IMG/VR virus record: IMGVR_UViG_3300020416_000010
Coordinates: 1 to 51,929 of that record
DNA length: 51,929 nucleotides
Origin: a virus
Strand: one strand, 5' to 3'
This document shows positions 3,001 through 49,286 of this stretch, in pieces; within the stretch, counting starts at the first letter, position 1, and each line of letters begins with the position of its first letter. The notes beneath the pieces were generated by a model, which ran no database searches, was not told the origin of the DNA, and saw only the letters and a program-made list of their open reading frames with translations. Both the position numbers and the translations under genes were made by a program.

Positions 3001-6000
3001 GGTGTAACATTTGATGCAGCGATATGTGCCACAGTTGACGCTGCAATGGATACTTTGTTCAATATCATTACTACTGCAATTAGTACAGACAGTTTGTCAA
3101 CTGTCACAAGGACAAACCCAGTTGGATACATTACACATATTGCTGGTGAAGAGACAGAGACTATATTTGCATTTAACAAAGCAAGAGACTTATGTAACCT
3201 AGCAGTTACCAATAGTCTACCAGAAGGAACTTACACAAACATTGCTCCTGTTACTGACTTGAGTATTACAGTAGACTCAGGTGGATGTTCAGACGTTAAG
3301 AGTGCAATTACTACATTGTCTGGAATCATCACAGAAGGTATAGACAATCCATCTACTCTACCTACAGTCAATACTGGTAACTATCCTAACAATAGAACTG
3401 GTACACCTGTTGGTGGTCTAACAAATGGTTCTGCATACTATGTTAAATTTGTAGATGCAAATACAATACAACTTGCTACTACTGAAGGTGGTAGTGCAAT
3501 TAATCTATCATCATTAGGAACTGGTGTAGGACACTCACTAAGATTATTCATTGATGGTATCAACGATACATTTAAGTTGAGAACAAACAATATTGATATT
3601 GGAACTAAGATTGGTCATGCTGCTGATAAGAAGCAACTACTCGTAATGACAAATGGTCTAGTAACAAACCCTGCAACATATACATTTGCAAACGACGCCA
3701 TAACATTCCTTACACCTCCTCTTGCTGAGACTAAGATTCTTTGCATGTATTATGACCGTGCAAGTTACACATCTAGTTTCCAGTTAGATCAAATTGGAGA
3801 TGAGATAAAAACATTCGGTGCAATTACATCTGGCAACACATATAGCGATGGTGTATACACAAACGTGCCACTGAAAAATAATCTAGGTGGAGGCGTTGGT
3901 GCTACTGCTGACATTACAGTCACTGGTGGTAAGGTAACAGGAGTTGCACTTAATACTGCTGGTAATGGATATACAGATAACGATGTATTAGGAATATCGG
4001 ATCCTCGTGTTGGAGAACAGTTAGTTAAGAACTTCCTTCCATCAACAGGAACTTATGCTCCTGCATCTGGTGAGATGGTATTGACTATAGGATCTGGTCA
4101 TGGTTTATCTGCACCAACAACACATACGCCAGGCGGTGCAACCTACAGTGGTACAACTGGTTTGATGGTGGTAACTATCAATAGTCATGGACTTGTCAAT
4201 GGTGACCAAGTTAAGTTTGCAGATGGTGCGATTACATTTAACTGTGGTTACAATGGTGGTGGTGACGAAGCATATCCTCGTTCTACAGACTACGCATCTG
4301 ATAGATGGTTACAAGTATTTGATTGCACAGAAAATACATTTACTGTACAAGTATTAGACAGTATTCCTTCTACAAATACTGATACACATACATTTGTATC
4401 TGCAGTGTCAAATAGTGTCAAGTTTGCAGTATCCACAGTTAGAATTGCAAACGAATCATTACAGTTTAGTTGTGGTTACAATGGTGGTGGTACTGCATCA
4501 TATCCACGTGCTACTGACCCAATAGGTACACAGGGTAAGATGAAAGATATACCTGTGGAAGCGGTTGGTACGACTACGATTACAGTCAATGCATTGAACG
4601 GTACAACTGCTACAAACACTGACTCACATACATGGGTAGGATTATCAACATACCAGTTCCAACCTACAGATATTGCTTACACACCAACTACAGGTGAGAT
4701 GGTCGTGACTGTTTCTGGTCATGGCATGATTAAGGGTGACAGAATATACTTTGCTACAAACAGTCTTACATTTACATGTGGTCTAGACAACAATCAAACA
4801 CAGCACACATATCCTAGAGTAGGTGACCCATCAGAGGGTGCATGGCATACAATTGACGCAGTAACAAATGATACATTCACTGTTAACGTCGGTGTATCAT
4901 CTGATACATCAACTCATACATTTGTTAGTGCCACTTCTACTGCTGTCACAAGAGCAGTTGTATCATACGGTGTATATGGTTACAGCAAGAACGCAGATGG
5001 TGCATCACTACTAAGAACAAACCAAGAATTTATTGCTACAACTGCATATGGTAGAATGATGGCAAACAATGCTGGATTCTCTAGTTCTTATCAGGTCAAG
5101 TGTATTCGTGATACTAAATTACTCGTAGATGCAGTTGCTGACAATATAGAGTTTGGCGGTAACGATGCAACTTATGATGCTGCTAACTTCTATGTTGCTA
5201 CAGCACACCTAACAGGAGAAGAAGATCAATCTGTAGAAGTATTCAATGCTGCTAGAGATATTTGTCGTCAGGTTATGCGTAACCTTACAGTTACTACAAA
5301 CTCATACACTGTAGGTACACAGGTCAAAGACAATACAATCAGTAATGACTCTGGAAGCACATCATACTCTGAAGCATGTTGTATTGACACAGCATCGACA
5401 ATAACAACTCTCTGGGCGATAGTAACACAGGCAGTTGGAACTACAGCAGGGGGTTCTGGTAATCTTAATGGTATTACAAGGACATCTGCAACACAACCAT
5501 TCTTCCAAGTAGAAGTAGACACAGTAACCTTTGATGGCACTGATAAAATATTTACTGCACAGGTAGGCGGTAGTACACAAGTACTACCCGCTAGTGATAA
5601 CTTCTTGATATTCTTGAATAGCACATTCCAAGTCAAGGGTACTACAGAAGCATACACATATACAGGAAGCACAATAACATTTACAGAAGCACCTCTGCCA
5701 GGCATGGACTTCTACGGATTCTATCTTGGTAAGTTGACATTACTAGATGAGATTGCACCATTCTTTGATAGTCAGAAGAAGACATTTACTATGAAAGAGG
5801 ATACTGAACCATTCTCACTAGAAAGTGACAACGTAGAAGTAGAAGCACAAAACAACCTACTCATATTCTTAAACGGAATCTATCAAGAGCCAGGTGTAGC
5901 ATTTACTCTAACAGGTTCTATTATAGAGTTTAGTGAACCACCACGTGCAGGATCAACTTGTGAAATATTCATATTTACAGGTTCTGCTGAGGACGTTCTA

Positions 6001-6909
6001 GTCAGCAACACATTTAACTCATTAGATATAGGAGATAGATTCCAGATTGACTCTGAGGGTTCTGACCGTTCAATCGCTAAGGTTTCTAGTTCTACCACTA
6101 TTGACAGTTATGAGTATACAGGTCTAAGACCATCAACTGCAGAGTTTGTTGCTACTATAGTCAACGGTGCAGTAACACAGGTAGACATCATCAATGCTGG
6201 TTCTAACTATGAGGTACCACCTATCCTACTATTCCAAGGTGGTGGTGGAGAAGGAGCATTTGCAGAAACAACAATAGAAATAGGTAGTGGTAGAGTTACA
6301 GGTGTAGTAAACTTACAAGGTGGTGCAAATTATACAAGTGCTCCAACTGTGCTTCCAACACACCCAATTGCAGTGGAAAGAAAACAAAGAAATAGACTTA
6401 TATCTAATTCTAAAAACTTATCTGCTACATACCTAACGTCTACACTATCACAATCTGGCACAACAATAAATCTAAAGAATGTTTGGTTTGATTCATCACA
6501 GAAAAATGGATTCCCTGATGAAGGTGAAATTTTGATACCATTTTATGACAGTGTAAATAGTGTGTGGAGTGCCGAAAGAATCTTGTATGGTTCTAAGGAT
6601 ACAGTAGCAGAAACACTAACTGTTGCTACTGGTGGTAGAGGTTACTTAGGTACCACTGCTGCTGCACACCCAGTCATTACTGGTACATATAGTTCATCAG
6701 GAACTTTATGCACCGTGACTACAAGTTCTAATCATAATTTAAGTACTGGTCAGGAATTCTATTTGGATTGCACATCAGGAACTGGATTTGATGGTTCTTA
6801 CAAAGTTACTGTTACAACAGCAACATCGTTCACAGTCGAATTTCCATTCTCGCGGACAGCAAGCGGAAACTGCTCTCTGCTACCAGAAGTTCGTCTAAGA
6901 TCATTATAA
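1..6909 (+). CDS. Giant baseplate-associated structural protein in the gp7 position (5' end outside window)
   Basis: The frame is open from base 1 to the TAA at 6907-6909, so at least 2302 residues are visible and the true start lies upstream; the TTG at 118 is only an internal codon. The gene directly precedes gp8, where T4 carries gp7 (baseplate wedge initiator, 1032 residues), so the gp7 role is inferred from position alone; I see no diagnostic gp7 motif. The protein is Gly/Thr/Ser-rich and built of repeats. About nine Gly-Gly-x-x-Tyr/Phe repeats of the NGGSGFLSAPTV type lie in 290-1230 and 3900-6360. Helical Cys-rich modules lie at 2509-3360 and 5101-5490, a triplicated YPR module at 4140-4965, and a C-terminal HGL-like module at 6680-6890. 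Each module type recurs in other genes of the window. Structural role is likely; exact identity is moderate. Confidence 0.7.
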   Translation, partial: TLQNVFGSFIPNEIVISQQTQANTTARGQVISWNPVNSVLRIKPLKNERVGAGNKGYIMFSTGTAETNTVYSSDSQGSVQAISGTQATVSSAVSGGGKLASVTITQAGSNYRSAPDIIFDDPYYGSVATASLKTQPAGNGTFTADTTTTGVTQTSVNPNGASGAEFTIVTDGNGRISTVTVTAGGSAYDTSSILTFDGTKLPGGDSTEDFTIQVDTLSFDDPASIATVIDAAIDTVTVTNGGSGFLSAPTVSVSGGNGINAVLNATIQNQSVTAVTIETGGQQYQSPPVVNIEQKTGSGASILLKSSDLGKILKISGDNITYNYSHDRTLKPSLNTTYNLQLIRTQVIDYLDVVNGGQNFVANPTIVLTGGQGSLFSLKPIIENEVIQSVLVENAGRGFTSAPTVSAKVTHTWVGLQSSSTINFPYNAKIPSGTKVTLVQQSGQFPEPLLPNTTYYAVAATTANGLADNQIRLATSLANANTETTITFTSAPTGDISTGQTYFLLETTDLGDTINAFMKPATFSVGERIYQGASTSSFTAYGFVKNWDASGRVVSVEIVEGEFKVGEPVFGEETAAFGQIHAFSRADAVFDVSPISISASGWERTTGFLDLNEQRVYDSDRFQEFSYDISSSVNINNWKNPLKFAAHPAGFKVVGTQVITQTVKKDYRSKANLDLNSGNSTDWWVPTTNSIGSTFNGTTYVTPKPSAKNTGKLATINNFALAKPDYSALVPTEVSIFGRQLLDIQKILSCIVYKIDDISDRTINFDASSSSIVNTSSDQITLTGHGFLNNQRVIYNAGGDRFQDARDLIINNIDHIVEETIGALNAQYPSLNYNNATCARDTRLVIAAWTNDLKYGGNYFTVAATNSYIGGVISQGNAYIDAGNLLKNNKNLIAAEAVHLMLEDATVGIPSGFAGVPGGPQNCIDDIVDCIEAIAYNLTYGANSEVWDAANLYVNTVHLDGEETQAIWAFDKAKELAADVIVNTAINIQGSHGFTQVTNTGVTFDAAICATVDAAMDTLFNIITTAISTDSLSTVTRTNPVGYITHIAGEETETIFAFNKARDLCNLAVTNSLPEGTYTNIAPVTDLSITVDSGGCSDVKSAITTLSGIITEGIDNPSTLPTVNTGNYPNNRTGTPVGGLTNGSAYYVKFVDANTIQLATTEGGSAINLSSLGTGVGHSLRLFIDGINDTFKLRTNNIDIGTKIGHAADKKQLLVMTNGLVTNPATYTFANDAITFLTPPLAETKILCMYYDRASYTSSFQLDQIGDEIKTFGAITSGNTYSDGVYTNVPLKNNLGGGVGATADITVTGGKVTGVALNTAGNGYTDNDVLGISDPRVGEQLVKNFLPSTGTYAPASGEMVLTIGSGHGLSAPTTHTPGGATYSGTTGLMVVTINSHGLVNGDQVKFADGAITFNCGYNGGGDEAYPRSTDYASDRWLQVFDCTENTFTVQVLDSIPSTNTDTHTFVSAVSNSVKFAVSTVRIANESLQFSCGYNGGGTASYPRATDPIGTQGKMKDIPVEAVGTTTITVNALNGTTATNTDSHTWVGLSTYQFQPTDIAYTPTTGEMVVTVSGHGMIKGDRIYFATNSLTFTCGLDNNQTQHTYPRVGDPSEGAWHTIDAVTNDTFTVNVGVSSDTSTHTFVSATSTAVTRAVVSYGVYGYSKNADGASLLRTNQEFIATTAYGRMMANNAGFSSSYQVKCIRDTKLLVDAVADNIEFGGNDATYDAANFYVATAHLTGEEDQSVEVFNAARDICRQVMRNLTVTTNSYTVGTQVKDNTISNDSGSTSYSEACCIDTASTITTLWAIVTQAVGTTAGGSGNLNGITRTSATQPFFQVEVDTVTFDGTDKIFTAQVGGSTQVLPASDNFLIFLNSTFQVKGTTEAYTYTGSTITFTEAPLPGMDFYGFYLGKLTLLDEIAPFFDSQKKTFTMKEDTEPFSLESDNVEVEAQNNLLIFLNGIYQEPGVAFTLTGSIIEFSEPPRAGSTCEIFIFTGSAEDVLVSNTFNSLDIGDRFQIDSEGSDRSIAKVSSSTTIDSYEYTGLRPSTAEFVATIVNGAVTQVDIINAGSNYEVPPILLFQGGGGEGAFAETTIEIGSGRVTGVVNLQGGANYTSAPTVLPTHPIAVERKQRNRLISNSKNLSATYLTSTLSQSGTTINLKNVWFDSSQKNGFPDEGEILIPFYDSVNSVWSAERILYGSKDTVAETLTVATGGRGYLGTTAAAHPVITGTYSSSGTLCTVTTSSNHNLSTGQEFYLDCTSGTGFDGSYKVTVTTATSFTVEFPFSRTASGNCSLLPEVRLRSL
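4140..4965 (+). repeat. Triplicated YPR module in the gp7-position protein
   Basis: Three tandem units share a Cys-Gly start (CGYNGGGDEAYPR, CGYNGGGTASYPR, CGLDNNQTQHTYPR), a following Asp, and a closing T-x-T/S-H-T-F/W-V segment. A fourth copy lies in the 3459-residue fibre gene at 28675-28985. Confidence 0.8.
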
Positions 6910-17620: not shown

Positions 17621-17836
17621 ATGAACGTACAAATTGTTATTAACACATTACAGAAAAAAATCTCTGACCTGACTTTAACAAATGTGATGCTGGAAGCTCA
17701 AATCGCTGATTTGCAAGCACAGTTAAATACTATAACCGAACAAAATCCTAATGAGACTGCTTTAGATGGCAACGAGAATCAAACTGAAGAGGTCGAGCAC
17801 AGCGTCAGCAGCTCCGACGACTTCGACACTCCTTGA
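17621..17836 (+). CDS. Small coiled-coil protein overlapping the next gene, 71 aa
   Basis: Residues 5-38 (I-N-T-L-Q-K-K-I-S-D-L, then M-L-E-A-Q-I-A-D-L-Q-A-Q-L) form a clear amphipathic heptad pattern; the rest is acidic and Ser/Asn-rich. Similar short coiled-coil proteins beside fibre genes are familiar from T4-like marine phages. Its last 71 bases overlap the start of the 2426-residue fibre gene in another frame. The acidic tail is therefore encoded by the same bases as that protein's basic start. Function unknown; a fibre assembly or trimerisation factor is possible. The start has no strong Shine-Dalgarno. Confidence 0.65.
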   Translation: MNVQIVINTLQKKISDLTLTNVMLEAQIADLQAQLNTITEQNPNETALDGNENQTEEVEHSVSSSDDFDTP

Positions 17837-20800
17837 TGGAGAAGTTGCGGTAAATACCGCAGACAAAAAAATATATGTTAGAGACGGTTCAAATATTGTT
17901 GAAGTCGCTAACGCTGAACCCGCAGTTGGTGAAATCACCACTGCGATGCTTAATGCTGACATTACAAATGGTCAGGGTAAGACATTTTATGTTGCAACGG
18001 TAGGTTCAGATAATGACTTGCTAGGTAATGGTGGTAATAATGGTAAACATCCAGATACACCATTTCTAACGATTACAAAGGCACTTACTAAGTGTAGTTC
18101 TGGTGATACTGTAGTCATTGCACCTGGCGAATATCAAGAAGTATTTCCAATTACAATACCTGACGGTGTAACCGTTCGTGGTACTAATTTACGTTCGACA
18201 ATTATAAAACCAACCAATGCTACGCAGAGTAATAATGCGATAGTATTAAATGGAGATTGCCATGTCTCCGATTTTACATTAAAGGATTTCTTGTATGCTA
18301 GTGGTGCTGACACTGGATACGGTTTTGTTATTGGTTCATCAATGGACTCTACTACAAGTCCATATGTAGAAAGAGTTACAGTCTCGACAAAAGGTAGTGT
18401 AGTTTCTAGTAGTGACCCTTATGGATTCTCGCAGGGTGATGCTGGTAGAGGTGCAAAACTAGATGGTGCCAATGTAGACTCTAATTCATTAAACGCATCC
18501 GTACTATTCAACGAGTGTACATTTATTACACCTGGTAGTGTCGGATTATACATGACCAATGGTATAAGAGTTGAGTGGTTAAACTGCTTCAACTACTTTG
18601 CTTCTATTGGTGTACAGGCAGTTCAAGGTGCTACAGGTAAATATGGCACAGGACAAACAAGATTAAAACTAGGTGGAACTAGTGGAACATTCTCCACTAA
18701 TGAAGTTACATATCAGTTAGAAGATGGTTTCCAGTCAGGAACGTATGCAAGAGCAGGAACAACAGTTACACTGACTCGTACTGCACATGGTTTAGTATCT
18801 AACGATTACATCTATGCAGACCATATCAGTGGTGGTGCTACAGATAACTTCTATCAGATTACAAAGGTAGACAATAATACATTTACATATACTGATAGTT
18901 CATCAGGAACTATTGCAGCGGGCAACGTAACTTACAAGAAAGCAGTTGGTCGTGGTGTTGTAGCATCTAACGATGGTACATACGTTTATATTACAGGTAA
19001 GGGCACTGGAGAGTTTGTATCCACAACTAAACCAGCAAAGACATTAAGTAGATTTGGTGACACACAGATTGATACTGGACAGAGCAAGTTTAGTGGTTCA
19101 TCTATCATCTTTGACGGTACTCAGGATAACTTACAAGTTCCTACTAATGCAGACTTTGGATTTGGTACTGCAAACTGGACTTTAGAGGCATTTATACGTC
19201 CTGCTAGTGTGACAGGTACACAGCGTATCTTCGACCTTAGAAACGCTTCTGCTACCGATACAGCACCAACTGTATACATGGATGGTACAGCACTAAGATA
19301 TGCTGTAGGAAATACATCTCAAATCAATGGTGGAACATTATCTGTTAATACATGGTATCACGTTGCTGTTTCTAGAAGTAATGGTGTTACAAGATTATTC
19401 TTAGATGGTACAGAGTTAGGTTCTAGTTACACTGACACAAATAATTACGGTGACACAAAACCTGTTGTCATTGGTTCTAACTATGACACAACATCTCCTG
19501 CTGAAGCATTCAACGGTCATATTGATGAAGTAAGAATCAAGAAAGCACAAGGTTCATACTCTGGTAACTTTACTCCTACAACTAGTGAGTTCACATCAGA
19601 CCTCTTTACTGTATTACTATTACATGGTGGTGGTAATGATGCTACTACAATTTTTACAGATAGTTCTGGTGGAACCAGTGACATCCGTTCTAGTGGTGGT
19701 GACTCTGCTACTGTTGTAACCACTGCAGATTATTCTGCATTTGGTGCAGAGATGCGTTCAGTTGCATCTGCATGTGTATACGGTAATAAAGGTGTACAGG
19801 CAGACGGTGCTGGTACAAAACTAATTTTAACTGCACATAACTTTGGTTATGTTGGAGCAGGTCCTGACTTTACCAATGACCCATCTCTAGCAGTACAAGC
19901 AAATGAGGTAGAAGAACTTAATAGTGGTAAAGTTCTATATTCATCTACAGACCAAGACGGTGACTTCCGTGTAGGTGATGCATTTACAGTAGACCAAGAA
20001 ACTGGTAATGTTCAATTCCAAGCAACATCATCAGCTCAGTCAGCTGCAAACATTACATTAAGTGATGAGACAGGTACTACAAACATATATCCTGCATACG
20101 TTGAGACAGGTAACTTACGTCTTGCTGGTAACAGTTTAACATCTACTTCTGGTAAGATAATCCTTGACCCAGCTGGTGATGAGGATATTACTCTTAATGG
20201 TCAGGTAGTTGCACCTGAGAACATATACTTTGCATCTAATAGACTAGCATCTATTCTAGGTACAGGTAACTCATCTTGTGCATTTACAGTTGGTTCGTAT
20301 ACACAAGCGGGTTTCTCCTCTTATGGTATTTTCTCCAACAAAAACTTTGCGATAAACAAAAAGGCATTAAACCTTACAACTGGACTTACTATTGTTAATG
20401 AGGGTACAGCATACGATGCAGGGCAATACAACGCTCCTTTACTATCAAACCCAGACCAAGTTGCAACAGCGACTGCTACATTAGCAGCTAATGGTTCTAT
20501 TGGTGTAGTTAATGTTACTAATGAAGGTAATGGTTTATACATCCAAACACCTGACGTCACAACTAACATAACTCCTGTCACAGGTAACGTAAGTTTCATT
20601 GTTAGTTTAGGTACAGGTGCAAGAGTTGCATCTCTTATTATAGTAAGTGGTGGTTCTGGATACAGTTCACCAAACTTAACTCTAAGTGCACCTCCAGCAA
20701 AAGCATTTGATGCTAACTCTGCTATATCTACAGCAGCAAACACAATCACATTTACTCAATCTGATTTTGTAAATGGCGATGCATGTACTTACGATAATAA

Positions 20801-23800
20801 TGGTAACTCAGACTTAAATGGTCTTGTTAATGGTAACACTTATTATATTGTAAACAGAGATACAACAAATAATACTTTACAGTTATCAGCAACATCTGGT
20901 GGTTCTCCAATATCATTAACTGCTGCTGCAACTCCAAATGAAATACACAACCTTGTTGGTATAACTGCCACCGCAACAGCAACAGTGACAAGTGGTTACA
21001 TTAGTGCAATCACTATTACAAACAGAGGTTCTGGATATGTAACTGGTGCTGCACCAACTCTTACAATCAGTGAGACAGGTGCTGGAATTACAGACGCATC
21101 AATTACTGTAAACCTTGGTAGTGAAGTAAGGTCAATACAAACAACTGGTACTGCGGTATTTTCTACCACACCATCACTAGTAATCACTGCAAACACTAAC
21201 GACCCTAATGGTTCTGGAGCAGCTGCGACAGTTGCAAACATGACTTATGCTGTTGCAAGTGTTACATTAACTGGTGCAGGATATGGATATTCACAGACAC
21301 CTCAAGTAAGTTTTGTTGGAGCAAATACTAACGCTGCAGTTGCTAGTGCAACTCTAGACACAGAATTAGGTCAGGTATCAGAGATTACATTGACATCTGG
21401 TGGTGAAGGATATTCAACCGCACCAACAGTCCAAATCAATGGTGGTTCTGGTTCTGGAGCACAGGCAAGTATTACTGTCCTACCTTTTGGTGGTAATATT
21501 TTATCTGGTGGTTCTGGATATGCAGTTGGAACTTATCAGAACGTAACTTTAAATGGCGGAACAGGAACGGGTGCTACTGCAACTCTAACAGTTGCTGGAT
21601 TATCTGGAACAATCACTACTGCTGGTACAGGTGGTACAGAAGGAACATATCAACAAATAGACATATACCCAAATTCTCCTGCAGCAACATATCCAGTAAC
21701 GGTACAAAACCGTGGACTATTAGAATTTGATTCTACTGGAGGAATAACTGGAACTGCTGCAGTTGGCGACACAGCAACTGGTGCAACATCAGGTGCTACT
21801 GCAACTGTATCTTATGTCGATAGTGCAGGACAGTTTGCATACTATGTTATCTCATCATTAGCAAACGGACCTTTCCAACAGGGTGAGACAGTCAACTTTA
21901 CATCTGGTGGTAGTGGAAGTTTAGTACAAGCACCCGTTGAGACATACAGATATTTCATAGACACAGGATCAGGTCCACAAGAAGCACCAGCTTTGACCTT
22001 TGTAAGGGGTAACACATATCGTATGGATATGTCTGATAGTAGTAATACAAATCACCCAATATCATTTGATGCTATTACATTAGCAGATACTGCAAACTAT
22101 GCTATCAGAGAATATGGAACGCCAGGTACTGCAGGAGCATTTGTAGACTTTGTTGTTCTACAAAACGCACCTACAAGCACAGGCACTGTTTACTATACAT
22201 GTACAAGTCACGGACAGTCTATGTCTGAGAGTTCCTACATCACAATTACAACTGGTGCTGCTGGTGTATATGGTGTTGGTGGACAAATAGATGTTACTGT
22301 TGGTGGCGGTGGTGCAGTTACTGCTGTTGCATTCTCAACTGGTGGACAAGGAACTGGTTGGAAGGCAGGAGACGTAGTTAAAGTTGGAAACTCATCATTA
22401 ATAGGAAACACAACTGGATTTACATTTACTGTAAGTGCTAACGATACAAGTATTAGTTCAGTAACTGACATTGTATCATCAGGTAGTGGATATACTGTAG
22501 GTGACGTTCTTACTGTTGATGATGCTGACGTAGGTTCTGGTGGAGGTTCTGGATTCCAGTTTACTGTTACTAAGGTAGGTTATATATTCTCTGCAGTATT
22601 ATCATCTGGTGGTTCTGCATTCTTCCAAGGACAAGACATAGTATTTGATACCACAAACTTCAATGGTTTAGGTGATAATGGTAGTAACTTTGCATTAAAA
22701 GCAAATACCATTGATACTTCTGAGGTTACAACGATTGCTGCAGATGGTTCTTTAAAATCTGCAGAATATGGATTCTCAGAAACTGGTATTCTAACTTGTG
22801 GTTCTGGAGCATCAACAACAAGTACATTATCCAATGATACATTAACAACTGGTACTGCAACATTACGAGGAGACTTGACTGGACAGGCAGGAGCAAGTTT
22901 CAGTACAACATTAACTGTAGGAGGATTGACAACTCTTAACGGTGACTTGACTGCAAATGGTGCAACTAACTTTGTTGACAATGCTAAGGTAAAATTACAG
23001 AGTGGTACAGCTGCTGCACCAACTCTTGTTCTAGCATCAGAAGATACAACTGGTTTCTACAGGTCTGCTGCTAACGAATTTAGTTTCTCTGTAGCGGGTG
23101 TACAAAAAATTAGATTAGGTGCAGTTATTGATACTGCTACACCTTTAACTGTAGATTCATTACTAGGTGCAACAAATCCTTACTTTAAGGTTGACCCTGC
23201 TACAGAAACAACAGTTATAGGTACTGTACAATCTGCCTTATCAATAAACAATGCTACTGAAATTAGTGCTGTAGGTGCTGACCAAAACATTGATATTACT
23301 TTTACACCAAAAGGAACTGGTAATCTTGTTCTAAAAGGTGGTACAGATATATTATTCTCAGTAACTGATGGAACCACAGAGCAGTTTAGTATAAACAGTT
23401 TAACTGGTGATACTGATATTAAGGGTAACTTAGAAGTTGATGGTGCATTAAAGATTCAAAGAAGCACAATCAATAACTCTGATACAGGTGGAACATCATC
23501 ATTTGGTGAGGTTGTTACATGTACAGTTACAGGAACTGGGTCTGGATATACAAACGGTAGTTACAGTAGCGTAACATCTACATCAAACGGAAAGGGTACT
23601 GGAGCAACATTTACAGTTGTAGTTTCTGGAGGTGCAATTACATCTGTAGTTCCAACAGCATCTGCTAGAGGTTCTAACTACTACATTGGTGATACAATAA
23701 CACTTGACTCAGGAGCAATCGGTGGTGGTTCTGGAAACACTGTTACTGTTACTGACACCCAAGGTCAAGGTCTTGTATTGAAACCAGCAGGAGGAAAGAG

Positions 23801-25046
23801 TGTTTGGGTTAACAGTACAGGTGCATTTATAATTCCATCTGGTACAACTAACCAAAGACCAAGCACCGTAGATAGACTTGCGGGTGCAATTAGATTCAAC
23901 AGCACACAACAACAGTTTGAAGGATACAATGGAAATGACTTTGTATCTCTAGGTGGTGTTCGTGACGTTGACCAAGATACTTACATATTAACTGAGTCTT
24001 CACCAAACGCTGACGAAGATACATTTGAGTTCTTTGCTCAAGGTGTTAATTGCTTATCACTTGATAAAGATAAGTTTACTCTTAAGAATGCAAAACAATT
24101 TGACGTACCTGGCACAGCAATCTTTAACGGAACCGCTGCTGGTAACCCATTCTCAGTTACATTCCAAGGTGCTAACATAGCATCCTTTAGGTCTAAGAAA
24201 GACTTTGAAGTTGCTAACGGACTAAGACTAAGAGGAGTTCCTACACAAGGTACAATAGCAACGATTGGAACTGAGACATCAAGCACTGGTGCTTATGGTG
24301 TATCACAAACATATAACGGTGTGGTATCAACTGGTCAGTTTGAAGGTACAGGAGCAACATTCAATGTCACCACTAATGGAAGTGGAAACATAGACCAAAT
24401 AAACATCGCAACTGGCGGTAGTAACTATGAAACTGGAGAAATCATTACAATTGGTGGTGACTTACTTGGTGGTGCTACTCCTGCAAATGATGTCACTTTC
24501 CCAGTTACAGCACTCTCAAGCACTAAGAGTCCATTTGCAAGACTTGATGTTATTCAGCAAGATTATGTAACTCAATTAGATTCCAAACCTTTCGTTAGTT
24601 TGGATGCTAACGGTGCACAGGCAGCATGGAAAATCAACAGAGGATGGAACGGTGGTACAGAAAGTTACCTAACAGTCTTTGATTCTACTGCTGATTTTGT
24701 TGAACTTGATGACTGTAGAGTAGAGGGTGGACAGTTAACATCATTTACTGCTAACACTGCTATCACACAATTTAATAAGACAACATTCAAAGGTGCGAAG
24801 ACATTAGTAACTATAGAAAGTAACGATGGTAAAGTTCATATGTTGGAGATTACATCTATATGTGCTGCAGCAGGAACTACTGCACATGCCACCGTAACAA
24901 ACTCAGTAACATCTGATAACGACCTAGTTGATGCATCAATTGCTGTTGCTGGTACTAACGTTAATATCACGCTTACAAAATCTAGTGCAGCAACCTCGTC
25001 CACATCCTTTACTGGTAGATTCACAACTACAAAGGTCAAGGTATAA
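17766..25046 (+). CDS. Giant tail-fibre-like protein with beta-helix, LamG-like and cupredoxin-like domains, 2426 aa
   Basis: The N terminus (MATRIKLKRSSTASAAPTTS, LDGEVAVNTADKKIYVRDG) is a standard phage fibre opening. Residues about 75-300 look like a right-handed beta-helix (VGSDNDLLGNGGNNG, TITKALTKCSSGDTVVIAPG, GVTVRGTNLRSTII). Residues about 440-620 match a LamG/concanavalin-like lectin (SIIFDGTQDNLQVP, WTLEAFIRPASV, WYHVAVSRSNGVTRLFLDG, GHIDEVRI). Many GGSGY repeats follow in 20380-22620. Residues about 1393-1495 are cupredoxin-like, with H1430, C1479, H1482 and M1486 in the type-1 copper order. The C-terminal part has fibre blocks (G-T-G-N-L-V-L-K-G, KSVWVNSTGAFIIPSG) and ends in a beta-sandwich-like segment. 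It probably binds host surface glycans; binding and copper content are inferred. Confidence 0.8.
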   Translation: MATRIKLKRSSTASAAPTTSTLLDGEVAVNTADKKIYVRDGSNIVEVANAEPAVGEITTAMLNADITNGQGKTFYVATVGSDNDLLGNGGNNGKHPDTPFLTITKALTKCSSGDTVVIAPGEYQEVFPITIPDGVTVRGTNLRSTIIKPTNATQSNNAIVLNGDCHVSDFTLKDFLYASGADTGYGFVIGSSMDSTTSPYVERVTVSTKGSVVSSSDPYGFSQGDAGRGAKLDGANVDSNSLNASVLFNECTFITPGSVGLYMTNGIRVEWLNCFNYFASIGVQAVQGATGKYGTGQTRLKLGGTSGTFSTNEVTYQLEDGFQSGTYARAGTTVTLTRTAHGLVSNDYIYADHISGGATDNFYQITKVDNNTFTYTDSSSGTIAAGNVTYKKAVGRGVVASNDGTYVYITGKGTGEFVSTTKPAKTLSRFGDTQIDTGQSKFSGSSIIFDGTQDNLQVPTNADFGFGTANWTLEAFIRPASVTGTQRIFDLRNASATDTAPTVYMDGTALRYAVGNTSQINGGTLSVNTWYHVAVSRSNGVTRLFLDGTELGSSYTDTNNYGDTKPVVIGSNYDTTSPAEAFNGHIDEVRIKKAQGSYSGNFTPTTSEFTSDLFTVLLLHGGGNDATTIFTDSSGGTSDIRSSGGDSATVVTTADYSAFGAEMRSVASACVYGNKGVQADGAGTKLILTAHNFGYVGAGPDFTNDPSLAVQANEVEELNSGKVLYSSTDQDGDFRVGDAFTVDQETGNVQFQATSSAQSAANITLSDETGTTNIYPAYVETGNLRLAGNSLTSTSGKIILDPAGDEDITLNGQVVAPENIYFASNRLASILGTGNSSCAFTVGSYTQAGFSSYGIFSNKNFAINKKALNLTTGLTIVNEGTAYDAGQYNAPLLSNPDQVATATATLAANGSIGVVNVTNEGNGLYIQTPDVTTNITPVTGNVSFIVSLGTGARVASLIIVSGGSGYSSPNLTLSAPPAKAFDANSAISTAANTITFTQSDFVNGDACTYDNNGNSDLNGLVNGNTYYIVNRDTTNNTLQLSATSGGSPISLTAAATPNEIHNLVGITATATATVTSGYISAITITNRGSGYVTGAAPTLTISETGAGITDASITVNLGSEVRSIQTTGTAVFSTTPSLVITANTNDPNGSGAAATVANMTYAVASVTLTGAGYGYSQTPQVSFVGANTNAAVASATLDTELGQVSEITLTSGGEGYSTAPTVQINGGSGSGAQASITVLPFGGNILSGGSGYAVGTYQNVTLNGGTGTGATATLTVAGLSGTITTAGTGGTEGTYQQIDIYPNSPAATYPVTVQNRGLLEFDSTGGITGTAAVGDTATGATSGATATVSYVDSAGQFAYYVISSLANGPFQQGETVNFTSGGSGSLVQAPVETYRYFIDTGSGPQEAPALTFVRGNTYRMDMSDSSNTNHPISFDAITLADTANYAIREYGTPGTAGAFVDFVVLQNAPTSTGTVYYTCTSHGQSMSESSYITITTGAAGVYGVGGQIDVTVGGGGAVTAVAFSTGGQGTGWKAGDVVKVGNSSLIGNTTGFTFTVSANDTSISSVTDIVSSGSGYTVGDVLTVDDADVGSGGGSGFQFTVTKVGYIFSAVLSSGGSAFFQGQDIVFDTTNFNGLGDNGSNFALKANTIDTSEVTTIAADGSLKSAEYGFSETGILTCGSGASTTSTLSNDTLTTGTATLRGDLTGQAGASFSTTLTVGGLTTLNGDLTANGATNFVDNAKVKLQSGTAAAPTLVLASEDTTGFYRSAANEFSFSVAGVQKIRLGAVIDTATPLTVDSLLGATNPYFKVDPATETTVIGTVQSALSINNATEISAVGADQNIDITFTPKGTGNLVLKGGTDILFSVTDGTTEQFSINSLTGDTDIKGNLEVDGALKIQRSTINNSDTGGTSSFGEVVTCTVTGTGSGYTNGSYSSVTSTSNGKGTGATFTVVVSGGAITSVVPTASARGSNYYIGDTITLDSGAIGGGSGNTVTVTDTQGQGLVLKPAGGKSVWVNSTGAFIIPSGTTNQRPSTVDRLAGAIRFNSTQQQFEGYNGNDFVSLGGVRDVDQDTYILTESSPNADEDTFEFFAQGVNCLSLDKDKFTLKNAKQFDVPGTAIFNGTAAGNPFSVTFQGANIASFRSKKDFEVANGLRLRGVPTQGTIATIGTETSSTGAYGVSQTYNGVVSTGQFEGTGATFNVTTNGSGNIDQINIATGGSNYETGEIITIGGDLLGGATPANDVTFPVTALSSTKSPFARLDVIQQDYVTQLDSKPFVSLDANGAQAAWKINRGWNGGTESYLTVFDSTADFVELDDCRVEGGQLTSFTANTAITQFNKTTFKGAKTLVTIESNDGKVHMLEITSICAAAGTTAHATVTNSVTSDNDLVDASIAVAGTNVNITLTKSSAATSSTSFTGRFTTTKVKV
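20380..22620 (+). repeat. GGSGY repeat array in the 2426-aa fibre
   Basis: About ten units of a hydrophobic strand, Gly-Gly-x-Gly-Tyr, x-x-x-P and Gly-rich strand type (SGGSGYSSPNLTLS, NRGSGYVTGAAPTLTI, TGAGYGYSQTPQVSF, SGGEGYSTAPTVQING, SGGSGYAVGTYQNVTL). The array is interrupted by Y-Y-I and cupredoxin-like segments. Confidence 0.75.
21943..22250 (+). other. Cupredoxin-like domain in the 2426-aa fibre protein
   Basis: The order is a strand with a FVRGNTYRM motif, an NHPISFD motif carrying H1430, and a final YYTCTSHGQSM motif carrying C1479, H1482 and M1486. This reproduces the His ... Cys-x2-His-x3-Met ligand order of type-1 copper proteins. Fold and ligand set are read from motifs only; copper binding is inferred. 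Confidence 0.65.
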
Positions 25047-39585: not shown

Positions 39586-40393
39586 AAAGACTTGGATAGA
39601 ACATTCATATAAACTAGAAGGTGGACAGACTAAGTACCAGAACCAAAACTTTGTGGTTGGTACACAGATTACACCATTTAAAAAAATTCAACAGGCACTA
39701 CTAGAACTACAGTCTAGAGATAACACTAGAGTGGAGTTGCAGTATCGTCTTGACAAGAATGCTATAGATTTAAAAAAATTAAATCGACAATTAAAACTTG
39801 CTCAAGATCCTTTAGACAAGGAAGCAATAGAGATTGAGATTAACAAAGCTCTCTATGATAGAAGTATATGGGAGCAAAAGGTAGTCATCTGCAAACGTGA
39901 GATTGAGAACTTCACATCGCAGTTAGATGAGATGGTAGACAAATCAAAAGGAATAGAGTATTATCTTAATACCAATGAGGAAGAAGATAAGAAATATTGG
40001 ATTAGTCGTATGGCAAAACAGGCAGCATGCGACATGATTTCTTTTGGACATGTTGGTACGGGTAACATGGATTCTATTATGAATCTACCTACTGAAGACC
40101 AGATACAAGTATTGTCTGGTGCTGTATCTCACTCCTCTATAATTGCAGCAGGAGTTGCGTCCATGCAAAAACAAATGGGTGGAACCATAGGTCATATCAT
40201 AAACGGTGGTGAGTTTAAACCACCGCAGATAAATGGTTCTGAAATTACATCATTACCAGAGGATACACCTCCTCCACAAATAGGTTCTGCAGAACCACCA
40301 GAGGTTCCAAAGACACCTCTAATTACTGAACTAAAACATGACATCCCCAAAAAGAAAGTCCGTCTTCAGTCTCCCAATAAATCCAAAGATTGA
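39566..40393 (+). CDS. Coiled-coil hypothetical protein, 275 aa
   Basis: The start overlaps the previous gene by 20 bases. Residues 30-130 are long charged helices (L-L-E-L-Q-S-R-D, LDKNAIDLKKLNRQLKLAQD, IEIEINKALYDRSIWEQKVV), strongly predicted as coiled coil by eye. Then come KYWISRMAKQAACDMISFGH, V-G-T-G-N-M-D-S-I and an 'E-D-Q-I-Q-V-L-S-G-A' segment. I associate this combination with a conserved protein of unknown function in cyanophage structural clusters. The C-terminal 60 residues are Pro-rich (TPPPQIGSAEPPEVPKTP) and probably disordered. Function unknown; its C-terminal coding end overlaps the start of the methyltransferase fusion gene by 56 bases. Confidence 0.65.
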   Translation: MELSDSEKTWIEHSYKLEGGQTKYQNQNFVVGTQITPFKKIQQALLELQSRDNTRVELQYRLDKNAIDLKKLNRQLKLAQDPLDKEAIEIEINKALYDRSIWEQKVVICKREIENFTSQLDEMVDKSKGIEYYLNTNEEEDKKYWISRMAKQAACDMISFGHVGTGNMDSIMNLPTEDQIQVLSGAVSHSSIIAAGVASMQKQMGGTIGHIINGGEFKPPQINGSEITSLPEDTPPPQIGSAEPPEVPKTPLITELKHDIPKKKVRLQSPNKSKD

Positions 40394-43373: not shown

Positions 43374-46300
43374 ATGAAGAGGGTAGTAGTAAGGGTCAGC
43401 GATAACTATAGTTTGGATTCTGCTGCTGCAGCAATCTTGAAATTGTATGGTTACCTTACCTTTGTAGAATCATTTAGAACTTTCTCAATCATAACATTTG
43501 ATTGTCCTGAGAGATATACCAGTGTAATAATAGACCAACTACGTGCATTGAACGTAGTTAAGAAGGCGACATGGGATGCTAATGCATTTCAACTTAACCC
43601 TGTCTACGAGTCACAGTTGACAGCTGAGACTAGTGGTACAGCAGTGTTGAATGAAACTGGAGAGACTAACACAGTTGGCAACACTAGACAACTTACAGGT
43701 GCTGGATCAGGTACAATATATGTAAAAGTTCAGAACATTAACGGAAACAATCTATATCTTTTTTCACAGACACAGAACGGAGTATATTCACAATTTGCAA
43801 ACCAGACAGGTTTCTTACAGGGTGCAACATACACCTTTGACCAGAGTGACTCTTCTAATGCTACTCATGGTATGAGGTTCTCTGAGACTCCTGACGGACC
43901 TTGGACTACTGGTGGAACTACGTATAGCAATGGTGTTGTAGTTACAGGAACTGCAGGACAAGCAGGAGCTTCCGTAGCAATAACAATCAGCTCTAGCACA
44001 CCATCTATCCTCTACTACTATTGCATCAATCACAGTGGTATGGGACGCTATGACAATCTACATGCAAATAGATTTGGTACCATAAACGTACATGACTACT
44101 GGCATCTAGACAGAATTACAAAACAAGACAGACAATACCTTAACAGACAATTTAGTTACAACCAAGATGGTAACGCAGCAGACTTATATGTGATTGATAC
44201 TGGTGTTCGTGGTGCTTCTAGGCCGACTGGTAACAACGCTGCTCTTCACTCTGAGTTATATGATCCTTCATATGTCTCTGACCTAAACGGTACTACAGAA
44301 CAACAGAACTATAGGGTTTATCAACTCGGTCACTATGCTGGTGCACATGGTTCTAACAACGAAGATGACAATGGACATGGAACACACTGTGCAATTCTCG
44401 CGGCTGGTAGAGGGGCGGGTATTGCTAGAAGAGCAAAGATATATGCATTAAAGGCATTTGATAGTAACTTAAGTGCATCTTATACTAATATACTGGCAGC
44501 ATATCAGGCAGTTATAGACCATAACGACAGTGGAAACGGAAATTACAAAGGAAACACTCGGCCTGCTGTCATCAATGCATCATTCGGACCTACGATTCCT
44601 AATGCAAACTATCCATACATTGAACTAAATGATGCTGGTAGTGACTCAGGAACTGACGAAGAGATACTAGACGACATCGAAGGAACGATTGCAAGCACAT
44701 ATAATATCATTATTGTTCGCTCTGCTGGTAATGGATTTAAGAACAGTAGTGATGCTTTCGCAGGTCCTATACAAGGTAAATGTATTTCTGGTACAAGAAC
44801 TGCTGGTTATGCAGATAATACTAATGGTGGTATCAACACAGTTGACGCAAACCAGAACAAGGTATCAGTCGGTGCTACAGAATATAACGATAGATGGGCG
44901 GACTTCTCAAACTATGGTGCTGGTACAACAACTACTGCACCAGGTGCAAGGATCCTAGTTCCTGCATACGATTGGACTGCTAACACTCCTACAACTAGTG
45001 CATCAAACTATACAACTATAGGTGGTACATCCTTCGCTGCACCTTTAGTTGCTGGTGTTGCTCTTGCATGGTGTGGTGCAAATGGTTACACGTTAACAAC
45101 AAATAATCTTACAGGCACATTTAAAACTTTCTGTAGAACTCCAAACGATGTAGGAGATATCAGAAAAGGTGGTAGCACATTCTACCCAACAAATAGTATT
45201 GAAGATAGAAAACTAATAGACAATCCATATGAGACTGCTGCTGGTTCTAATTTCTTAATTGTAAAATTTAACCCTGCTGATGCTTCTCATTTCCTAGGAA
45301 ATGTAGGTAAGAAATGTCAGTTAAGAACAACAGGATCTACTGCTGGTGCAGGAGGTTCTACACCAACAACATTTAATATAACAACAACTGCACCATCATC
45401 AGGATACTACACTCTTAACGGAACTGATAGAAATGGTGCTGTTAGTGGTAATGATGTAGGCGTGACTGTTTATGTCGGTGATACAATAAACTTTAATTTA
45501 TCAAACGTATCTGGTATACACCCGTTTTATATCAGAGTGTCTAGCAATGGTGCTAACGTAAGCACTCCTTCTGCATCAGGACAAGGATCCACAGGTAACT
45601 CAACAGTATCATGGACACCTAATACTGCAGGAACATATTACTATCAGTGTGGTGTTCACTCTGGAATGATAGGATCTATAACTGTACAAACTGCACCTGG
45701 CGGTAGTGGTGGTGTAGTGGTTGGCGGTATAGATGTATCTGGTTTATCACAGTCTGGTTGGTTGACAATACAGGCAGAGAGTGCAATCAATAATACAATT
45801 ACTGTACAGAACACAAGTAATGCTACTGCTGGAACTACAGGTGGTGGGTCTAATAACTATCTTGCACTCATAGATCCTGAGTCAAAAACACATGAAAGTA
45901 TAGATGGTGTTGTATCTACATCAACAACTTTAAGATCCCAGACCGATACACAAGAAGCACAGGGCACAGGTCAATATACAAATGTCGTATACTATCCAGT
46001 AGACTCAGGTGTAGACTTTGATTACAATGGCACTGGTGGTACACTGACTAAAAAACGTGGTGCATTTTTCCCTTATGTCGATACAAACGTAACATGGACA
46101 ACTAGCACAGGTGCACTTAACGGTAGTCCATATGCAGATGGAGCAAACATAACTGTAGAACTCGGTCTTGCTGGTACAACATTTGCTAACGAACCTACGT
46201 TTGAACAATACACATTAAGTGGAGATGCTATTGGTGCATCAGGATTGACATTCAATACTGCAACTGGTCAACTATCAGGCACAGTAACATCTGATTATCT

Positions 46301-49286
46301 TGACACAACATTTAATTTTACAGTAACTGAGAACGTAACTCAAAATGCTAGAGCATATAGTTTTACTACAACAGGAACTGGTGTTCTAATTACAATTACT
46401 GGAAACCCAAATTCTACATCTGTTGAGGCAGGAGCAAACATCAACGCTGTCTTCGGTCCTGTATCTGCAACTAGTTCAGATGGTTCTACCCTACTATACC
46501 AATGGGAGTTCTCAAGCAACGGTGGTGTAGGTTGGTCTAACGTAACTAATGGTGGATTCTATAGTGGTGCTACCACAAACACATTAAGTGTAGATGATGA
46601 ATACTCACTAAACAATTATCAATATCGTTGTCAGGTAACCTCTGCAACTGCTATTGCACCTGGCACAACTACTGCTGCTACATTAACAGTAACACGTGTT
46701 ATTACAGTTGACACACAACCAACAAATCAACAACCCGTGGCACCAGCAGCTGCTGCATTTACTTGTGCTGGTTCTACAAAAGACGCAGCAACCCTGTCAT
46801 ACCAATGGCAGATATCACAAAATGGTGATGGCGTAACCTTTGCAGATATTGGAGGAGCAACAAGCACAACATACACTACAGGAAGCACATCATACGATAA
46901 TGACTATGGTGACTTCTACAGATGTAAATTAAATGTTGCTGGTGCACCAGAGGTGATAACTTCCTCTGCACGTAACTTAGTACAACGTACAATTAGTATA
47001 ACCTCACAACCATCAAACGTTACAGGTGCTGTGGGTGGTACAGTTTCATTTGGTGTTGCTGCAAATACATCTGATAATGATGCAGGAGATATTACATTCC
47101 AATGGCAAGTATCTCTTACTGCTGGTGCGTCATGGTCTAATGTATCAGAAGGAACTGGTGGTACAAGTGCAACTTATACAACGCCTACACTAACTCAAGC
47201 ATACGATGAATACCAATATCGTTGTTTGCTCGCTGCTAATGGTGCAACAACTATACCTAGTAATGCTGCTACATTACAAGTAGAAACAGTAACGGTAATT
47301 GTATCTACTCAACCAACAGGTTCTACAGTTACTGAAGGTAATACTGCTACGTTTACTACACTCGGTGGTGTGACAATGGCACCTGTAGGTGGTAACGCTG
47401 CATCGTCATCATTTGATGTTGAGCAATTTGACACACCGACTGGTGGAGGTGGTGGTGCTGAAGGACAATCACAGCACGAACCTAGTGTAACTTATCAATG
47501 GGAAAAGTCAGATAACGCCCATGATGTTACTACACCAACAACTTATACTGTAACTGTCGCTGCTAAGACAGCAAGTCATCCTTACTACAATCAAGGATCT
47601 GGAAAAGGATATTATATTATTGGTGGTGTTTACGACACAGTAACACAAGCACCTAACTTGCAGTTTGTAAAAGGTGCAACTTACGTATTCAATCAAGACG
47701 ATGCATCAGTTACAACACACGCAATATATTTCAGTGCTGTAGAAACAGCATACGCTGGTAGTGACCGATATGAAACAGGCGTAACCTACACACTAGACGG
47801 AGTTGATGTAAGTTACACTGCATATGATACTGGTTTTGCTACCGCTACACAACGTCGTGTAAGTATTACAGTAGATGCAAGTGCACCTTCCACGCTTTAC
47901 TATGCTTGCCAAGCACATCAATATATGGGTAACGCAATCACAGTTGGTGATGTTGTATGGAGCACACTTGGTGGTGCAACTTCTGCATCATATACCACTG
48001 CTGCTACAACTTACGCAGACGATCATCTTGACCAATATCGTTGTATTATTGCAGCGACTGGTGCTGCATCAAACGCAACAACAAATGCTGCAACTCTCAA
48101 TGTACAAAGGACATTATCAATAACATCTCAACCCGCAAACGCAACTGCTAACGAAGGTGGTACTGCAGCATTCTCTGTTAGTGCTACTGGTAGTAGCGGA
48201 ACTCCAACATACCAGTGGAAGAGATCAGACGATGGTGGTAACAATTACGTCGATGTTACGGGTGCAAATAGTAGTTCTTATACAACACCAACACTTACAT
48301 TTGCTGCAGATAATGCTGACAGATATGTTTGTGAGGTATCTCTAGTAGGTGCATCCTCAAGTGTGACATCAACGTTTGCTTTATTGTCAATCTTACGTGT
48401 GATTACAATAGGTACACAACCACAGAACCAAGGAGTTATTGAAGGTAACCAAGCAACCTTTACTATTGTTGCATCTATAACAAGTGATGTAATTACATAC
48501 CAATGGCAGAAGTCTGTTGACAGTGGTGCTAACTGGAGTAATATCAATGGTGCAAACTCAGCATCATATACAACTCCTGCTACAGTTTATCCAACAACTC
48601 CATCTGAGCAATTCAGATGTGTTCTAACAAATCCAAATGCTACAACAGTTACATCTAATGCAGCAACACTGACAGTTAATGAGTCAGAGTTTGTATCTGC
48701 ACCAGCATCTATAACACCAGTTATAGACAGTGATACAAGCAAAACATTCTCCAGACAACCAGTTATAAACACAGCAGCATATGTTGTTGAGTATTCTGGT
48801 TCTGTACACTTCTCTAGTTTCTGGAGAATAAGAAGAGTTAGTGATAACGTCACAGTATTCAATACTGCAGACACATTTACTAATGGTGATACTGGTAACT
48901 TAACATCACTAACAGTCCCTAGTGGCACACTAGATTTTGATACTGCATATTCTGTACAGGTCAAGTTTAGAGATAACGCTGGATTGGAAAGTGCATTCTC
49001 ATCTGCAGTCAACTTTACTACACCTCTAGTTGACCAACCAGACATACAAACAATTACACCAGCATTTAATCCAACCATCAATGTAAATGCTATTGCAATG
49101 AAGACTGGATACACTCACTCATCTAGTGATTGGCAGTTCTCACCTACCAATACCTTTGCAACTATTGTTCACCAATCTCTTGGTAACTCAACAAACCTAT
49201 TATCTTATACTTTGCCTGGTGCTGTTAACCTAAGTGCTAACACTACATATTATGTAAGAATAAGATTTAACATCAACCCTACCTAA
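43374..49286 (+). CDS. Giant virion-associated subtilisin-like protease with cupredoxin, Ig and Fn3 domains, 1970 aa
   Basis: Residues 1-80 may be a subtilase propeptide-like domain (MKRVVVRVSDNYSLDSAAAA, VIIDQLRALNVVKKATWD). The S8 domain (about 265-590) has the full triad: D275 (YVIDTGV), H335 (NGHGTHCA) and S553 (GGTSFAAPLVAG), with the oxyanion Asn N453 (RSAGNG). Cupredoxin-like domains lie at about 128-225 (H165, C217, H220, M223), 666-772 (H716, C759, H762, M765) and 1406-1522 (H1449, C1512, H1515, M1518). A He_PIG-like segment lies at 922-990 (GLTFNTATGQLSG). Six Ig-like domains follow (about 1006-1770), each with a Y/F-Q-W and a Y/F-x-C motif, then two Fn3-like domains to the end. The gene lies two bases before gp13, where T4 has wac, so a neck-associated appendage is plausible. 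Protease activity is likely; target unknown. Confidence 0.85.
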   Translation: MKRVVVRVSDNYSLDSAAAAILKLYGYLTFVESFRTFSIITFDCPERYTSVIIDQLRALNVVKKATWDANAFQLNPVYESQLTAETSGTAVLNETGETNTVGNTRQLTGAGSGTIYVKVQNINGNNLYLFSQTQNGVYSQFANQTGFLQGATYTFDQSDSSNATHGMRFSETPDGPWTTGGTTYSNGVVVTGTAGQAGASVAITISSSTPSILYYYCINHSGMGRYDNLHANRFGTINVHDYWHLDRITKQDRQYLNRQFSYNQDGNAADLYVIDTGVRGASRPTGNNAALHSELYDPSYVSDLNGTTEQQNYRVYQLGHYAGAHGSNNEDDNGHGTHCAILAAGRGAGIARRAKIYALKAFDSNLSASYTNILAAYQAVIDHNDSGNGNYKGNTRPAVINASFGPTIPNANYPYIELNDAGSDSGTDEEILDDIEGTIASTYNIIIVRSAGNGFKNSSDAFAGPIQGKCISGTRTAGYADNTNGGINTVDANQNKVSVGATEYNDRWADFSNYGAGTTTTAPGARILVPAYDWTANTPTTSASNYTTIGGTSFAAPLVAGVALAWCGANGYTLTTNNLTGTFKTFCRTPNDVGDIRKGGSTFYPTNSIEDRKLIDNPYETAAGSNFLIVKFNPADASHFLGNVGKKCQLRTTGSTAGAGGSTPTTFNITTTAPSSGYYTLNGTDRNGAVSGNDVGVTVYVGDTINFNLSNVSGIHPFYIRVSSNGANVSTPSASGQGSTGNSTVSWTPNTAGTYYYQCGVHSGMIGSITVQTAPGGSGGVVVGGIDVSGLSQSGWLTIQAESAINNTITVQNTSNATAGTTGGGSNNYLALIDPESKTHESIDGVVSTSTTLRSQTDTQEAQGTGQYTNVVYYPVDSGVDFDYNGTGGTLTKKRGAFFPYVDTNVTWTTSTGALNGSPYADGANITVELGLAGTTFANEPTFEQYTLSGDAIGASGLTFNTATGQLSGTVTSDYLDTTFNFTVTENVTQNARAYSFTTTGTGVLITITGNPNSTSVEAGANINAVFGPVSATSSDGSTLLYQWEFSSNGGVGWSNVTNGGFYSGATTNTLSVDDEYSLNNYQYRCQVTSATAIAPGTTTAATLTVTRVITVDTQPTNQQPVAPAAAAFTCAGSTKDAATLSYQWQISQNGDGVTFADIGGATSTTYTTGSTSYDNDYGDFYRCKLNVAGAPEVITSSARNLVQRTISITSQPSNVTGAVGGTVSFGVAANTSDNDAGDITFQWQVSLTAGASWSNVSEGTGGTSATYTTPTLTQAYDEYQYRCLLAANGATTIPSNAATLQVETVTVIVSTQPTGSTVTEGNTATFTTLGGVTMAPVGGNAASSSFDVEQFDTPTGGGGGAEGQSQHEPSVTYQWEKSDNAHDVTTPTTYTVTVAAKTASHPYYNQGSGKGYYIIGGVYDTVTQAPNLQFVKGATYVFNQDDASVTTHAIYFSAVETAYAGSDRYETGVTYTLDGVDVSYTAYDTGFATATQRRVSITVDASAPSTLYYACQAHQYMGNAITVGDVVWSTLGGATSASYTTAATTYADDHLDQYRCIIAATGAASNATTNAATLNVQRTLSITSQPANATANEGGTAAFSVSATGSSGTPTYQWKRSDDGGNNYVDVTGANSSSYTTPTLTFAADNADRYVCEVSLVGASSSVTSTFALLSILRVITIGTQPQNQGVIEGNQATFTIVASITSDVITYQWQKSVDSGANWSNINGANSASYTTPATVYPTTPSEQFRCVLTNPNATTVTSNAATLTVNESEFVSAPASITPVIDSDTSKTFSRQPVINTAAYVVEYSGSVHFSSFWRIRRVSDNVTVFNTADTFTNGDTGNLTSLTVPSGTLDFDTAYSVQVKFRDNAGLESAFSSAVNFTTPLVDQPDIQTITPAFNPTINVNAIAMKTGYTHSSSDWQFSPTNTFATIVHQSLGNSTNLLSYTLPGAVNLSANTTYYVRIRFNINPT
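43755..44050 (+). other. Cupredoxin-like domain 1 of the protease
   Basis: G-A-T-Y-T-F-D, then ATHGMRFS with H165, and LYYYCINHSGMG with C217, H220 and M223 (Cys-x2-His-x2-Met, the spacing of amicyanin). It lies before the catalytic domain. Copper binding is inferred from motif order only. Confidence 0.7.
45370..45690 (+). other. Cupredoxin-like domain 2 of the protease
   Basis: VYVGDTINFNLSN, GIHPFYIRV with H716, and TYYYQCGVHSGMIG with C759, H762 and M765. It follows the catalytic domain. The ligand order is intact and the Cys-His-Met spacing equals that of domain 1. Confidence 0.72.
47590..47940 (+). other. Cupredoxin-like domain 3 of the protease, nested in an Ig-like domain
   Basis: FVKGATYVFNQDD, TTHAIYFS with H1449, and TLYYACQAHQYMGN with C1512, H1515 and M1518. 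It interrupts the fourth Ig-like domain between its YQWEKSDNA strand and its VVWSTLGGATSASYT continuation. Confidence 0.7.

Follow-up and report, generated by a model that had tools for sequence, protein, structure and literature searches.

A fibre-like gene and its neighbourhood

The window, i.e. the whole analysed stretch of 51,929 nucleotides (positions 1 to 51,929 of the IMG/VR virus record IMGVR_UViG_3300020416_000010), carries on its plus strand an open reading frame at 17766..25046 that encodes a fibre-like virion protein of 2426 aa. The tail family phrog_32294 ('baseplate wedge subunit') covers the whole protein with 2771 bits. A lectin domain of the Laminin_G_3 type was found at residues 450-591, and the N-terminus resembles Mtd_N with a score under the Pfam cut-off. 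The orthologue of the gene is PHM2_094 of P-HM2, a Prochlorococcus phage of the genus Eurybiavirus. Window and P-HM2 share the gene order around the fibre, which comprises gp8, VrlC, five small or medium genes, the fibre, a 177-aa virion protein and YapH. The source of the window is a T4-like Prochlorococcus phage, kin to Eurybiavirus.

In relatives the fibre gene is annotated as gp7, a baseplate wedge protein. A gp7 of the T4 type is expected beside gp8, the place of PHM2_086 in P-HM2, whereas the fibre gene is separated from gp8 by six annotated genes. Since a separate gp7 adjoins gp8, the gp7 label of the fibre gene is doubtful. The Mtd-like N-terminus, the laminin-G lectin domain and the repeat modules fit a fibre better than gp7. 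From the labels given to the relatives and from the gene order we infer that the fibre is part of the particle.

Two other reading frames may be mentioned here. At the window start the frame 118-6909 is the positional counterpart of the C-terminal portion of gp7, a very large protein. The gp7 proteins of P-HM1 and P-HM2 are ~4450 aa long and carry two copies of the domain described below in their N-terminal part, the counterpart of which would fall outside the window. A frame of 593 aa at 40338-42119 matched strongly to phrog_1458, a family of unknown function, and weakly to the methyltransferase model PF13578, just under the cut-off.

Within the fibre a cupredoxin-family domain extends over residues ~1391-1496 (21936..22253, plus strand). 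An earlier note on this DNA had placed such a domain at 21943-22250; its location was right, while the extent is slightly larger. The codon of the first proposed ligand, H1430, lies at 22053..22055 on the plus strand, within the motif SNTNHPISF. The other three proposed ligands, C1479, H1482 and M1486, are found in the loop CTSHGQSM, encoded at 22200..22223 on the same strand. C1479-T-S-H1482-G-Q-S-M1486 is the sole C..H.{1,6}M motif in the 2426-aa protein. H1430 and the C1479-x2-H1482-x3-M1486 loop had been read from the sequence before, and all of these residues are in place.

Further copies of the domain and kinship to cupredoxins

Three further copies are present in a second virion gene of the window at 43374..49286 (plus strand). 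It encodes a protein of 1970 aa with a Peptidase_S8 domain (PF00082, residues 273-570, E 3.7e-24), such that the term 'protease domains' used previously for these copies is appropriate. The motifs lie at residues 217, 759 and 1512. Copy 1 (43791..44051) has the motif CINHSGM and was found with a profile E of 8.3e-23, copy 2 (45462..45692) has CGVHSGM with 5.8e-8 and is nearest to plastocyanin, and copy 3 (47613..47948) has CQAHQYM with 6.8e-14, all on the plus strand. These values, together with 8.9e-35 for the fibre domain, were obtained with one common profile (A3, 39 relatives), which matched exactly four sites in the window. Since a single profile finds all four, their likeness is not due to chance, and the description of the fibre domain as a fourth cupredoxin-like domain in another gene is borne out.

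When used alone the fibre domain did not match any Pfam model, PF00127 (Copper-bind) included. This would be expected for an unrelated beta-rich domain that resembles cupredoxins by chance. Profile similarity to cupredoxins had been set beforehand as the point at which the idea could fail. We therefore aligned the domain profile with a reference set of 54 PF00127 proteins from cellular genomes using hhalign. The alignment had a P value of 3e-7, a probability of 93% and a score of 40.5, and it paired the His, Cys, His and Met of the fibre domain with the ligands of the plastocyanin family. As controls, none of 60 column shuffles scored above 16.9, and the profile when reversed scored 11.7.

The domain can also be connected to a solved plastocyanin in two steps via protease copy 2. 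By itself this copy reached a score of 18 against PF00127 (curated cut-off 21.2; E 0.004). The profile of its relatives (A4) found the solved plastocyanin 1b3i by sequence with E 1.7e-5 as well as amicyanins with E ~2e-3 to 5e-3, and 14 of 20 A4 members matched the Pfam model Copper-bind (best 2.1e-5). The fibre-type profile A3 in turn matched A4 with a probability of 97% and P 8e-11. Some A4 members also matched the Ig-like model PF23616 (best 1.3e-5). Such matches are expected among beta-sandwiches, and an Ig-like family leaves the four ligands unexplained. In a direct profile search of the PDB with the fibre domain, plastocyanins appeared weakly (E 0.3-0.9), below spurious matches to SUMO and antibodies. 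The SUMO match (4bkg, 6e-5) was rejected, since it covered the second half of the domain alone by two weak repeated half-matches and left the first His outside.

Given the distance from the shuffled and reversed controls and the two-step bridge, a chance likeness is strongly disfavoured. We consider it almost certain from the profile comparisons that the fibre domain is homologous to cupredoxins, and we infer that it adopts the three-dimensional cupredoxin fold, i.e. a beta-sandwich.

Conservation, spacing and loss of the proposed ligands

Of 120 aligned domains, 117 have the first His, 117 the Cys, 117 the second His and 118 the Met; the mean column identity of A3 was 43%. A larger set of 249 distinct domains contained 243 with the full His-Cys-His-Met set, 3 with part of it and 3 without His, Cys and His jointly, where the pattern behind most of the loci (TYRFD..D) excludes the ligands but overall similarity to ligand-bearing sequences was still required. 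The dN/dS ratio of the domain against near relatives was 0.18-0.32, and the domain is under purifying selection. Among the fibre orthologues the site is retained even though the identity of the flanks is down to 36-46% for the more distant members.

The earlier note had described the fibre loop as one residue longer between the second His and the Met than the loops of the protease domains. It is indeed longer, since all three protease copies follow C-x2-H-x2-M. Over the 120 domains this spacing was x2 in 96, x3 in 20 and x4 in 1. All 16 x3 loci that were tested by flank comparison are orthologues of the fibre gene, and judged from these flanks only orthologues of this gene have the loop C-x2-H-x3-M. 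One fibre orthologue, on a Prochlorococcus AG-418-C09 single-cell contig (L113), has the x2 loop. At 189 kb, this contig includes the complete fibre neighbourhood and probably represents a phage genome inside the single-cell assembly; a contig of equal length in the AG-418-C09 genome also has a match to PF00127 (L213), perhaps a phage plastocyanin. In a tree of the domains a single clade for the x3 group was not rejected (p-AU 0.86), with too few columns for most forks and poor automatic labels for the protease copies.

Loops of cellular PF00127 proteins (n=52) were distributed over C-x2-H-x2-M (18), C-x2-H-x4-M (15), C-x4-H-x3-M (12), C-x4-H-x2-M (4) and C-x4-H-x4-M (3), while C-x2-H-x3-M occurred in 0 of these 52 sequences. 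The view that both spacings lie within the range known for type-1 copper proteins thus holds only loosely, because the x3 spacing is absent from the cellular sample. A second difference concerns the residue after the first His, which is usually Pro in the virion domain and Asn in 40 of the 54 cellular relatives.

This replacement bears on a possible redox function. Electron transfer in plastocyanin, amicyanin and azurin classically relies on a Cys, two His and a Met as ligands, and the ligand positions of the virion domain align to these. Cycling between Cu(I) and Cu(II) could then sense or exchange electrons at the host surface and, for example, trigger a change of the fibre upon contact. In classical cupredoxins, however, the Asn after the first His braces the Cys ligand, and it is this residue that is replaced by Pro. 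Furthermore, repeat modules surround the domain within the long fibre, and no partner redox domain was seen there. We regard a redox role as unlikely.

Ligands are occasionally lost. Among the 249 domains the joint loss of His, Cys and His was seen in three marine bacterial copies. Two fibre homologues (L272, L273) carry at the place of the window domain a ligandless copy with Tyr or Lys for His and no C..H..M, and just upstream of it (upstream of 4001) a separate intact plastocyanin-like copy. The gp7 proteins of P-HM1 and P-HM2 likewise pair an intact copy with one that lacks the motif. The loss is not strictly all-or-none, as the set is partly retained in 3 of 249 domains and the His alone remains in some truncated second copies. 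In the ~1700-aa structural proteins of Sf-CH1b, S-H9-2, ACG-2014h and S-H9-1, second copies (L290, L292, L293, L295) retain the N-terminal half of the domain, and the C-terminal half with Cys, His and Met is swapped for other sequence. Contigs of marine Flavobacteriaceae MAGs (L118, L119, L112) encode the domain as well, and intact copies are there accompanied by ligandless ones within a contig.

Since ligandless copies exist, the fold is useful without a metal. Their persistence would suit a plain beta-sandwich for adhesion or spacing, in which the ligand residues hold a metal other than copper, for example zinc, or only pack, and so would the fact that copper in seawater is scarce and complexed. 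Against this stands the retention of the ligands in 243 of 249 domains at the alignment positions of copper ligands; for zinc in particular, methionine is rare in its sites. A plain sandwich appears rather improbable to us, albeit a reading to be taken seriously.

A candidate copper site in marine virions

A tblastn search found the domain in at least 54 phage records, with Synechococcus, Prochlorococcus, Pelagibacter and Methylophilales as hosts, and a scan of IMG/VR gave at least 551 confirmed stretches that contain it. Twelve complete phage genomes had one to five domain matches each. P-HM1 and P-HM2 had five each, distributed over three different virion genes, namely gp7, fibre and protease. 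The survey of marine phages that the earlier note had called for thus shows a domain that is not peculiar to the source phage. The conclusion that it recurs and was not acquired by chance is upheld, and to speak of a 'second gene' even understates its use, because P-HM1 and P-HM2 carry it in three. One tblastn match (L014) was rejected as spurious, since the ligand motif is missing and stop codons interrupt it. In MED4-213 (L017, 2789-3259) the annotated gene is split across the domain (CPMG_00027, CPMG_00026), by a choice of annotation or by a frameshift, although the domain reads through in one frame.

From the alignment and conservation of the four residues, H1430, C1479, H1482 and M1486 probably form a metal site. 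That the metal is copper we also consider likely, though with somewhat less confidence. The fibre protein would thus have a beta-sandwich module of the cupredoxin superfamily built into its length, and at one end of this sandwich the four ligands most likely make a type-1-like site for a single copper. A bound copper would tie the His loop to the Cys-His-Met loop. Such a tied module would be stiffened, as suits a part that has to remain folded in seawater; the fibre itself probably makes contact with the host. Of the roles considered, this stabilising structural one is the most likely, but it is a guess, to which we give slightly less than an even chance. The full reading, a virion cupredoxin module with a probable type-1 copper site that braces the fibre domain, is put forward with the same reserve.

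Alternatively, the virion could display copper as a bait, in the way that other virions were proposed to display iron, such that metal-uptake surfaces of the host favour adsorption. Iron is held by HxH motifs in the tip of T4 gp37, and iron sites were also proposed in the fibre of the Alteromonas phage R22Y, which provides a precedent (PMC11705849). The occurrence of the domain in several virion genes would agree with a bait as well, as several copies per particle are expected from it. However, relatives of the domain are found in phages of Prochlorococcus, Synechococcus, Pelagibacter and Methylophilales, and we know of no copper receptor common to these hosts. In addition, the cupredoxin site is buried and holds its copper tightly. 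We consider a bait very unlikely.

Returning to the copper-braced module, virus particles may carry copper, because copies of the domain are found across several structural genes and in many ocean viruses. Tentatively, and with more doubt than for the fibre domain itself, we propose a widespread and so far undescribed family of virion copper proteins, with several type-1-like sites per set of virion proteins, some of them with a loop length unseen in the sampled cellular relatives. Free virions could then constitute a pool of copper-bearing particles, with the copper contributing to the stability of the fibre or to contact with the host. Should copper be bound, abundant marine viruses would have a metal centre where the particle touches its host, in several copies per genome. 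Copper would join a discussion of virion metals that so far has mainly concerned iron, and a concrete protein with mutable ligands would be at hand. Cupredoxins would in this case serve as building modules and not as electron carriers. Even without copper, a common domain can now be named in giant cyanophage structural proteins that are annotated only as structural or hypothetical. No published description of a virion cupredoxin domain was found in the searched literature (cupredoxin or copper with phage tail, cyanophage or virion), which, with most subscription journals uncovered, is weak evidence of novelty.

Regarding known systems, the virion domain is closest to plastocyanin and amicyanin (PF00127). 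As in these proteins, its His, Cys, His and Met follow one another in this order and at aligned positions, and it shares with them the Cys-x2-His spacing and the strand pattern around 'G-x-T-Y-x-F-D' and 'Y-Y-x-C'; the C-x2-H-x2-M loop of most virion relatives occurs in 18 of 54 cellular members too. Plastocyanin and amicyanin are, however, small soluble electron carriers, whereas the virion domain lies inside a protein of 2426 aa. It differs further by His-Pro in place of His-Asn, by the x3 loop that the cellular sample lacks, and by a very low identity, such that the kinship was found only by profile. Two other families, phrog_30742 (tail fiber) and phrog_677 (baseplate wedge tail fiber connector), contain the same domain by profile in other host genes. 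Cyanophages also carry the plastocyanin gene petE, which is discussed as a photosynthesis-related gene; there the cupredoxin is a separate gene, in contrast to a domain within a structural protein (PMC3037559). The nearest precedent for metal-binding residues in a tail fibre is provided by T4 gp37 and by the proposal for R22Y, where octahedral iron sites with HxH repeats differ from the fibre domain in fold and ligand set (PMC11705849). The homology of the fibre domain to the plastocyanin/azurin family is well supported by the profile and alignment data.
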